Positions 12,786 to 15,243 of a DNA stretch of 49,360 nucleotides are shown here, in pieces. This stretch comes from Candidatus Uhrbacteria bacterium RIFCSPHIGHO2_01_FULL_63_20 (lineage in GTDB: Bacteria; Patescibacteriota; Patescibacteriia; UBA9934; GWF2-40-263), in NCBI GenBank assembly GCA_001791045.1, contig MGDT01000006.1, positions 44,957 through 94,316 on the forward strand, read 5' to 3'. A model generated the notes under the pieces. The model had not been told where the DNA came from and searched no databases. It saw nothing but the letters and a program-made list of their open reading frames with translations. The position numbers and the translations under genes are program-made. Positions within the stretch are counted from its first letter, which is position 1; each line of letters starts with the position of its first letter.

Positions 12786-14042
12786 ATGTCGAAGATCGAT
12801 TCCATCCACGCGCACGAGATCCTGGACAGCCGGGGGAACCCCACCGTGCAGGTCACGGTGCTGTTGGAAGACGGCTCGACCGGGACCGCGTCGGTCCCGA
12901 GCGGGGCGTCCACCGGGAGCCATGAGGCGCTCGAGCTGCGAGACGGGAACCCCAAGCGCTACCGCGGCTTGGGCGTGTTGAAGGCGGTGAGGAACGCGAA
13001 TGGCCCGCTCGCGAAGGCGGTGACGGGCATGCACGCCGACGACCAGCGCGAGATCGACGCGCGCATGGTGGCGCTCGACGGGACCGACAACAAGCGCAGG
13101 CTCGGCGCGAACGCCATCCTCGGCGTGTCGCTCGCGGTCGCGCACGCGGCCGCCAAGTCCAACGTCCAGCCGCTGTACGCGTACCTGCGCGAATGTTTTG
13201 AGTTGAAGCACAAGGGGTACCGCCTGCCGGTCCCGACCATGAACATCCTGAACGGTGGCGCGCATGCGGGCTGGATCCTCGATTTCCAAGAGTTCATGGT
13301 GGTGCCGCAGCAGAAACGGTTCTCCGAACGCGTACGGTGCGGATCGGAGGTGTTCCACGCGCTCGGCGATATTTTGAAAAAGATGGGCCACTCGACGCTC
13401 GTGGGCGATGAGGGCGGGTACGCCGTGCCGTTCGCGCGCAATGAGGACGCGCTCAAGGCGATCATGAAGGCGATCGCCGCGGCCGGTTACAAGGCGGGGA
13501 AGGACGTGATGCTCGCGCTCGATCCGGCCGTGTCTGAAGTCTATGACGCCAGGCGAAAGCGGTATGCGTTGCGCGTCGACAAGCAGCGACTCACCAGCGA
13601 CCAGATGATCGCCTTGTGGCAGGAATGGGCCAGGAAATACCCGATCGTCTCGCTCGAGGACGGGCTCGCCGAGGACGATTGGGAAGGGTGGGCACGCCTC
13701 ACGCGAGCTACGGGAGAAAAACTCACGCTCGTGGGCGATGATTTCTTCGTGACGAACGTCGCGCGGCTTCAACAAGGGGTCGCGCTGGGGTGCGGTAACG
13801 CCATCCTCATCAAGGTGAACCAGATCGGGACGCTCACCGAAGCGGTCGAAGCGATAAACCTGGCGCAGGAGAGCGGCTACAAGGTCTCCGTGTCCCATCG
13901 TTCCGGCGAGACCGAGGACACCACGATCGCCGACCTCGCGGTCGCCGTGAACGCCGACTACATCAAGACCGGTTCGCTGTCACGTTCCGAACGCCTCGCC
14001 AAATACAACCGGCTCATGGAGATCGAGGAGGAAGTGATGTGA
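12786..14042 (+). CDS. eno: Enolase
   Basis: EILDSRGNPTVQV, VGDDFFVTN, IKVNQIGTLTEA. Confidence 0.97.
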   Translation: MSKIDSIHAHEILDSRGNPTVQVTVLLEDGSTGTASVPSGASTGSHEALELRDGNPKRYRGLGVLKAVRNANGPLAKAVTGMHADDQREIDARMVALDGTDNKRRLGANAILGVSLAVAHAAAKSNVQPLYAYLRECFELKHKGYRLPVPTMNILNGGAHAGWILDFQEFMVVPQQKRFSERVRCGSEVFHALGDILKKMGHSTLVGDEGGYAVPFARNEDALKAIMKAIAAAGYKAGKDVMLALDPAVSEVYDARRKRYALRVDKQRLTSDQMIALWQEWARKYPIVSLEDGLAEDDWEGWARLTRATGEKLTLVGDDFFVTNVARLQQGVALGCGNAILIKVNQIGTLTEAVEAINLAQESGYKVSVSHRSGETEDTTIADLAVAVNADYIKTGSLSRSERLAKYNRLMEIEEEVM

Positions 14043-14569
14043 AGAAGAAGCGCATCGTCTTTTTCGACGGGGATGGGACCATTTGGTACCCGAAATCCAC
14101 CAAACGGACGAGAAAGCCTCACTGGATTTATTCCGACACGAAGATCGGACGGAATCATCTGGACCACCTGGTCCTGACACCGACGACAGTGCCGACGTTG
14201 AAGAAATTGCGGCGAAGCGGTGTGGTGTTGATCTTGATCTCGACGCATCCCCATCCGCCGAAGGAAGCGGACGAGTTTCTGAAAGGAAAGATGAGGCATT
14301 TGGACGTCGAGCGCCTTTTTGACGCGTATTACGCCGCTCGCGATTATCCGGAAGGAAAAGGGGAGTTGATCGTCAGGATCCTTAAGCGGCAAGGAATCCT
14401 CAAATCCCAAGCGTTGATGGTCGGGGACAGTTATCGGTATGATTATTTGTCTGCGAAGAACGTCGGCGTGGAAGCACTGCTCATCAGGACGCCATACACG
14501 GCGCCGGAGGGGAAGAGAGTGAGGCGGACCATTCATCACGTCCGGGACGTGCTCGATTATCTCGACTGA
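14039..14569 (+). CDS. HAD-superfamily phosphatase
   Basis: FFDGDGT motif I, LILIST motif II, MVGDSYRYDY motif IV; GTG start overlapping eno stop. Confidence 0.75.
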   Translation: MKKKRIVFFDGDGTIWYPKSTKRTRKPHWIYSDTKIGRNHLDHLVLTPTTVPTLKKLRRSGVVLILISTHPHPPKEADEFLKGKMRHLDVERLFDAYYAARDYPEGKGELIVRILKRQGILKSQALMVGDSYRYDYLSAKNVGVEALLIRTPYTAPEGKRVRRTIHHVRDVLDYLD

Positions 14570-14576
14570 GAATATA

Positions 14577-14606
14577 TTTCTGAAATTGTCCCGGTCGGGA
14601 CAATTT
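14577..14606. repeat. Palindromic element, upstream copy: AAATTGTCCCG-GT-CGGGACAATTT
   Basis: 11-bp perfect arms at 14583-14606, 11 nt before the PaaX/Cas2-like ATG. Confidence 0.9.
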
Positions 14607-14617
14607 GGTAAACGAAC

Positions 14618-15154
14618 ATGACACATCGCAATTCAGCCAGTCTTGCAGCGCTCGATCGACTCACGCGCTCGATAGAGCGTCTGGAACGAGGCATGATCGT
14701 GGATCGGCGCCGGTTCATGCAGACTCCTGGTTTACGCGGTCGGACAAGGATTGCCGTCGAGATGAGCGCAAAGAAGGAACGCGCACGTTTCCTACGCGGC
14801 TCGAAGGCGTTGATTGAAGATGGATTGGTTGCCGAGCGCCGAGTCGGCAATCAGATTGTCTCAGTCTTGACCTCCAAAGGTCTTGAAGAAACGTTACGGT
14901 TTCGCATTCGAGCCTCTCGTTCAGTTCTTCCGAATCAAGATCGTCTCATCGTCACGTTTGATATCCCGGAACACGTGTCCGATGTTCGGACTGCTCTGCG
15001 GAGGTTTCTGAAGAGCGCGGGATTTCGACACGTACATTTAAGCGTTTGGGACACGGACAAATCCGTAACCAATGAACTTTCACAGCTTCTCCGTCTGATG
15101 AAGTGCGGCCGGTGGGTGAAATTGTTCATTGGACGCGAACTGAAGGACGAATAA
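14618..15154 (+). CDS. PaaX-like winged-helix regulator with Cas2-like C-terminal domain
   Basis: wHTH-like region (LIEDGLVAERRVGNQIVSVLTSKG) followed by RLIVTFDIPEHVSDVRTALRRFLKSAGFRHVHLSVW, resembling the PaaX/Cas2 ferredoxin-like fold. Confidence 0.65.
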   Translation: MTHRNSASLAALDRLTRSIERLERGMIVDRRRFMQTPGLRGRTRIAVEMSAKKERARFLRGSKALIEDGLVAERRVGNQIVSVLTSKGLEETLRFRIRASRSVLPNQDRLIVTFDIPEHVSDVRTALRRFLKSAGFRHVHLSVWDTDKSVTNELSQLLRLMKCGRWVKLFIGRELKDE

Positions 15155-15160
15155 CGCTCA

Positions 15161-15190
15161 TTTCCGAAATTGTCGCGGTCGCGACAAAAA
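15161..15190. repeat. Palindromic element, downstream copy: TTGTCGCG-GT-CGCGACAA
   Basis: 8-bp perfect arms 15170-15187; 25/30 identity to 14577-14606. Confidence 0.9.
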
Positions 15191-15243
15191 GCAAAATGAA
15201 ACACCTTCCTCGCGGAACATGGGTCGGTTACAATGTCTCCGCT

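Follow-up and report, generated by a model that had tools for sequence, protein, structure and literature searches.

A gene for a small PaaX/Cas2-like protein in Candidatus Uhrbacteria bacterium RIFCSPHIGHO2_01_FULL_63_20 lies between two copies of a long palindrome, and homologous genes across the phylum are bracketed in the same manner. On balance, this arrangement is read here as a compact, probably mobile or formerly mobile unit, formed by palindrome, gene and palindrome and accompanied by dispersed gene-less palindromes (solos); it has the appearance of a selfish or domesticated DNA-mobility unit not described before. At the level of sequence the unit is demonstrably cognate with its repeats and dispersed, and its mobility is inferred by analogy with the RAYTs. 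The DNA analysed, called the window, is a stretch of 49,360 nucleotides (contig MGDT01000006.1, positions 44,957 to 94,316). Its initial annotation had left two readings side by side: for a minimal unit of palindrome, gene and palindrome, arranged as in RAYT/REP systems, the layout is supported by the bracketed homologues, the solos and presence/absence polymorphism, while mobility has not been shown; an autoregulatory operator is not excluded and may coexist with it, since many upstream copies extend over the promoter region. In the openly licensed literature, bioRxiv preprints excluded, no account was found that links PaaX/Cas2-like genes of Patescibacteria to palindromes, and an unseen report remains possible.

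The unit in the window

Table 1. Features of the window unit, its 5' neighbour and the solos of the same genome
Feature	Position	Strand	Remarks
Upstream palindrome TATTTCTGAAATTGTCCCGGTCGGGACAATTTGGTAAACG	14575..14614	+	40 bp; counterpart 5' of most homologues
Upstream core AAATTGTCCCGGTCGGGACAATTT	14583-14606	+	centre CGGTCG; core ends 11 nt 5' of the ATG at 14618
Gene for PaaX_M/Cas2-like protein, 178 aa	14618..15154	+	stop codon 15152-15154
Codons 42-84	14741..14869	+	helix and beta hairpin, predicted winged-helix-like DNA-binding part (AlphaFold2 model)
Codons 108-174	14939..15139	+	Cas2-like ferredoxin fold (AlphaFold2 pLDDT ~97; Foldseek; conservation)
Invariant residues in the Cas2-like part	D115 (codon 14960-14962), P117, S142, W144	+
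Downstream palindrome CATTTCCGAAATTGTCGCGGTCGCGACAAAAAGCAAAATG	15159..15198	+	40 bp, directly 3' of the stop
Downstream core AAATTGTCGCGGTCGCGACAAAAA	15167-15190	+	centre CGGTCG
HAD-like hydrolase gene	14039-14569		directly 5' of the unit
Solo	C2:4802		between converging zinc-ribbon and ruvC genes (names from reading translations)
Solo	C4:78299		after cca, facing tRNA-Val
Solo	C7:20956		converging genes, after a terminator
Solo	C7:138947		between SOD and peroxiredoxin (names from reading translations)

Both palindromes lie where the initial annotation had placed them, one shortly before the start codon and the other just past the stop, and they form a direct repeat with the centre in the same orientation on both sides. 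Over the 30-mer that begins at TTTC the two copies agree at 24/30 positions on recounting, and the 25/30 originally given has to be corrected; the mismatches are a T/C difference, a C-G to G-C swap at paired positions and TTT/AAA at the 3' edge. The swap, which had been described as compensatory, is real in the recount of both copies.

Glycolytic genes are found on either side of the unit. In most family loci examined, eno and gpmI are found close together and the element is missing, and the HAD-like neighbour has no homologue at E<=1e-10 in the other 42 family genomes; as far as these loci can tell, the window locus has gained the HAD gene and the element, for which no clean border can be drawn, and the HAD gene seems to have arrived in the eno-gpmI gap together with the unit or close to it. 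A tRNA-Ser gene occupies this gap instead in the congener G001 (L163:2218-2294), so that the gap seems to be an insertion-prone place. No cas1, other cas gene or CRISPR array was recognised among the immediate neighbours of the unit in the window, which offers no defence-island context either, and no paa genes were noticed among the window neighbours.

Pattern searches, on which all palindrome counts for this genome (863 kb, 98% complete) rest, gave six sites for the core when up to 3 mismatches were allowed and none for the reversed control pattern, which places the palindrome far above chance. Two of these sites bracket the gene and the remaining four are gene-less and away from it. The solo on C4 and the downstream copy have in common an asymmetric outer arm, GCTTTTTGTCGCG, and are thus related as repeats, beyond mere motif matches. 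The solo on C2 is part of the 3' end of the ruvC frame (L017:4793-4826), where the palindrome encodes the C-terminus of RuvC. The gene itself is present in single copy, the next-best match in the genome being insignificant (E=0.055).

The encoded protein

The window protein matches the Pfam domain PaaX_M (Cas2-like) with E=1e-8, and the same domain was found in 17/17 family members tested. No match at E<=10 to the N- or C-terminal domain of PaaX (Pfam PaaX, PaaX_C) was obtained for the window protein, which also falls below the cut-off of the Cas2 models PF09827 and TIGR01573. The AlphaFold2 model is confident for the Cas2-like ferredoxin fold and poor for the N-terminal stretch; over codons 42-84 pLDDT rises from 62 to ~90, and the helix and hairpin modelled there, just before the Cas2-like fold, are predicted to be a winged helix. 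The comparison with Cas2 and PaaX structures suggested in the initial annotation matched both: the best Foldseek matches are to the Cas2 structure 5zyf and to PaaX of E. coli (8a39), both at probability 1.00 and with no E-value below 0.001.

Asp115, Pro117, Ser142 and Trp144 do not vary among the full-length homologues (60/60). Mean pairwise identity is 0.37 in the Cas2-like part versus 0.20 in the N-terminal part, which is the variable half of the protein. The HUH motif is not conserved, H-x-H being present in only 5/106 proteins, and neither a Y1_Tnp Pfam match nor a HUH/Tyr signature was found in the window protein and family members. Between orthologues elsewhere in the family dN/dS is 0.06-0.09, indicating strong purifying selection and hence a protein that matters.

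Palindromes bracket the homologues

Across 106 distinct loci, the gene often has long palindromes at one end or at both. Those scoring at least 12 occur in 34/101 upstream and 58/105 downstream zones, versus 2/116 and 4/131 for neighbouring ORFs. The excess is also seen at independent loci, namely those first brought in by the phylum-wide search and not used for pattern discovery, where at least one such palindrome is present at 9/26, versus 0/38 and 0/32 of the controls. A second test, which asks only for sequence common to both sides and does not require a palindrome, detected the same repeat on both sides (score at least 15) for 97/122 testable homologues versus 3/366 mismatched pairs; where a shared repeat fails the strict palindrome test, it is an imperfect palindrome, in most cases with the same centre. 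No shared flanking repeat was detected for about 20% of the homologues. Chance was rejected by the genome-wide control patterns together with the neighbour-ORF controls. Palindromes absent around homologues and randomly present elsewhere would have refuted the proposal put forward in the initial annotation, and the bracketing of homologues across the phylum is the opposite of this.

The flanking copies are in direct orientation at 39 loci and inverted at 15, with 43 undecidable, the asymmetric copies being mostly direct. The upstream copy is often near the start or overlaps the promoter region; at three loci (L101-L103) it lies 5' of a TGnTATAAT-like -10 box, so that it is outside the transcript. 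A composite palindrome of 77 bp, made of two nested repeats, was observed 5' of the unit gene in G040 (L043:1247-1323, gene-strand coordinates).

Anatomy of the palindrome and co-variation with the gene

The repeat is a palindrome of about 36 bp whose centre is nearly always C-R-N-N-Y-G; the centres among strong palindromes are CGATCG (46), CGGCCG (26), CGGTCG/CGACCG (8), CACGTG (5), CAGGTG (4) and CAGCTG (3). In a centre-aligned profile, C/G at positions ±3 is invariant, as required by the centre pattern that picks the windows, positions ±8 to 12 are A/T-rich, and positions ±13 to 18 are highly variable between genes and paired within a copy. Pairing at ±4 to 18 was itself a criterion for choosing the profile windows; the fall of pairing beyond ±18 is therefore partly an artefact, although the base composition there is not. 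No conserved flanking tetranucleotide of the GT[AG]G type was found 5' of the hairpin, the conserved part being the central CRNNYG.

The centres are mostly self-complementary 4-mers and not free loops, an indication of duplex DNA that is symmetric about a two-fold axis. This bears on the possibility that the repeats act as RNA hairpins, either bidirectional terminators or stabilisers of mRNA ends that bracket the gene by accident: some arms are indeed A-stem-T like, and solos occur at 3' ends and convergent positions; however, a U-tract outside the stem is found in few palindromes, the sequence is private to the gene and matches on both sides, and the upstream copies at L101-L103 lie outside the transcript. 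RNA hairpins are consequently considered highly improbable.

The upstream and downstream copies of one gene agree at 26.3/30 positions, versus 12.7 between genes (14.4 within one genome), and none of 1000 permutations reaches the observed sum of agreement. In 37 pairs the copies differ on both arms yet keep pairing, the arms changing symmetrically. In the Azambacteria genome JACQAJ01 six genes lie beside palindromes with a ACGGTCGT-type centre; for the four genes that could be read on both sides, the arms are alike across the two sides and different between genes. Copies within one genome can have different arms around a gene that is ~77% identical. As read from these copies, each gene has its own private arms. 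In a quick tree of 106 proteins with many weak branches, the class of the centre changes 18 times, versus 29.7 times with shuffled labels (0/200 as low); centre and gene co-evolve, as far as such a tree can tell.

Solo palindromes

Solos are few, about 2-5 per genome. The genome G169 contains two gene-less copies of its element's palindrome, one of 44 bp and identical to it, the other differing by one compensated swap, and in JACQAJ01 two solos have the private arms of two of its six genes. The GTCC-type palindrome is found at 44 sites in 11/68 gene-bearing genomes, flanking copies included; the gene-free genomes, 313 in number, have 8 sites, all single, and the control has 6 sites in all. Two further arrangements were observed. 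In G088, two gene-less palindromes with mirrored centres, GGTC/GACC, bracket an unrelated 1.4-kb ORF (L154:1434-4082) and might be a unit with other cargo; in G206, two related palindromes are separated by 335 bp in which no gene is recognisable (L150:1489-1896), perhaps a decayed unit.

The 22 solos that could be classified by reading comprise about 10 between convergent and about 12 between tandem genes, with none between divergent genes; a cruder automatic tally gave 11 tandem, 6 convergent and the rest ambiguous. This placement is like that of REPs and unlike that of operators, and the neighbours, such as ruvC, SOD/peroxiredoxin and cca/tRNA-Val, have no common theme. Both points count against the main rival explanation, according to which the protein is a PaaX-type transcription factor whose operators lie at either end of its own gene, for autorepression by looping, and at a few other sites that make up a small regulon, without mobility; paralogues in one genome would then diverge in their arms to stay mutually insulated. 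Much of the evidence is compatible with such a regulator, namely the winged-helix-like part followed by PaaX_M, palindromes with duplex symmetry and self-complementary centres as for the operator of a dimer, the frequent closeness of the upstream copy to start or promoter, the strong purifying selection and the loci kept as orthologues between species. An operator, however, needs no matching downstream copy, and in one congener the whole unit is missing from the site, as described below. Autoregulation explains the upstream copy, the symmetry and the selection, and less well the downstream copy and the solos; we take it seriously, while judging it unlikely as the full explanation.

Distribution and inheritance

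Homologues were found by the family search in 21/43 genomes, with 0-4 copies each and mostly 26-41% identity; the other 22/43 family genomes lack the gene, among them G001, the congener of the window genome. Profile searches detected the gene in 68/381 genomes of the class and in 124/381 sampled genomes of the phylum, with 0 to 9 or more copies. Among the named hosts are Candidatus Uhrbacteria, Azambacteria, Doudnabacteria, Zambryskibacteria and Wolfebacteria. Carriage by plasmids or phages was rejected, the window protein being unmatched in PLSDB and INPHARED and a four-sequence alignment in IMG/VR.

Two pairs of genomes are informative on gain and loss. Between the congeners G188 and G058, the empty site of the latter has neither the gene nor either palindrome, and the filled site is 713 bp longer, the unit being 686 bp; the flanks are only ~65-67% identical, so that the borders are approximate and a target duplication is unreadable. 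Between G151 (filled) and G295 (empty), whose flanks are 89-95% identical, the difference of 1.6 kb consists of the element and another ORF, and its borders do not coincide with the palindromes. The additional ORF, of 258 aa and unknown function, was gained or lost along with the unit (L122:1885-2661). Related copies within one genome have only the unit in common and not the flanks. Neither near-identical copies nor a clean insertion with target duplication was seen among the elements examined. Several elements are orthologous at one locus across different species, suggesting mostly vertical inheritance, as for a domesticated gene. At a locus 3' of a comM-like gene, the unit of G011 looks degraded and fused to the frame of that gene (L049:973-1782), and it is intact at the corresponding locus in G023, G025 and G027.

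An ordinary insertion sequence that targets a REP-like palindrome, with the flanking copies as target-site duplications, could account for the mostly direct orientation of these copies and for the different arms around genes of ~77% identity in one genome. Hardly any credence is given to it, because the empty site of G058 has no palindrome, gene and centre co-vary by descent, and genomes without the gene show the GTCC-type palindrome only at control level.

The patchy distribution, together with fast-evolving arms and multiplication of paralogues that resemble an arms race, also raises the possibility of a defence or conflict module, in which a Cas2/VapD-like nuclease would recognise palindromes in cruciforms or invading DNA and the flanking palindromes of its own gene would be regulatory or self-marking sites. 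The Cas2-like fold, with an Asp at the active-site position invariant in all full-length homologues, is in line with this. However, the window has no defence-island context, PADLOC matches are mainly to Cas2 models with other models only weakly matched, and solos of the same palindrome on the host chromosome would themselves be targets, making such a module improbable. An association with CRISPR was rejected, as there were weak Cas2-model matches only and no recognised cas neighbours.

Comparison with known systems

RAYTs have their REPs on either side, evolve together with them and are in many cases inherited vertically (PMC2817692, PMC6006769). The REPtron, comprising RAYT/TnpA-REP and its REPs (PMC2817692, PMC6006769, PMC8266576), is the closest analogue of the unit: in both, a small single gene that evolves fast and is often inherited vertically is flanked by specific palindromes, extra copies of which are scattered extragenically, and gene and palindrome co-evolve with compensatory changes. 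The unit differs, however, in its protein, which has a wHTH and a Cas2-like part instead of HUH/Y1, in the absence of a GT[AG]G guide, in its longer palindromes (~36 bp), which are loop-less and have a CRNNYG dyad, in the mostly direct and not inverted copies, and in solos that are few and far below classic REPs in number. It is not filed as a REPtron because the protein fails the HUH transposase criterion. IS200/IS605 elements (TnpA Y1) have in common with the unit a single gene in ~700 bp and hairpin-capable ends, whereas the unit has neither the HUH/Tyr signature nor a Y1_Tnp match, and no near-identical multicopy expansion was seen.

The repressor PaaX of E. coli (PDB 8a39) likewise has a DNA-binding N-terminal part followed by a Cas2-like domain, and palindromic binding is expected for both; the unit protein, in contrast, has 178 aa versus 305, gives no match to the PaaX N- or C-terminal domain and has no noticed paa genes among its window neighbours, and its palindrome is present also downstream and dispersed. 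With CRISPR Cas2 and VapD nucleases it has in common the ferredoxin-like core and a DxP-type Asp on strand 1, the best Foldseek matches being to Cas2; it differs from them in the extra N-terminal DNA-binding part and in the lack of adjoining cas1 or CRISPR array in the window.

Proposed mechanism

For a mobile or formerly mobile unit, the following scheme can be proposed. A dimer of the Cas2 type would sit on the palindrome as duplex DNA; its Cas2-like domains would lie on the constant C-R-N-N-Y-G dyad, and the two winged-helix domains would reach across the A/T-rich stretch to read the variable arms, ~13-18 bp from the dyad. This mode of binding is an inference from the way in which centre and Cas2-like domain are both conserved and arms and N-terminal domain both variable. 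At the dyad, the invariant Asp might contribute to nicking. Bringing two palindromes together might then lead to excision, copying or conversion of the unit or of a palindrome, an activity that would spread the solos and keep the two flanking copies alike, and binding at the upstream palindrome would probably autoregulate the gene.

More tentatively, and with somewhat less than even confidence, Cas2-like proteins may have founded an independent class of palindrome-mobilising systems, widespread in Patescibacteria, which recognise, cut and copy their own long duplex palindromes and need neither Cas1 nor a HUH transposase; such a class would offer a possible picture of the role of Cas2 before CRISPR.

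Implications

The genomes of Patescibacteria are streamlined, and few of the mobile elements native to them are understood. About one third of the sampled genomes of this phylum carry the gene, with a patchy distribution. If the protein acts on the palindromes, a fold unrelated to HUH would join the palindrome-associated elements, and the Cas2 fold would gain a function beyond CRISPR and toxins. The protein/palindrome pairs, orthogonal by nature, would in this case also be available as a ready-made set, and whether the ancestor of Cas2 was a DNA-mobility protein would become directly testable.
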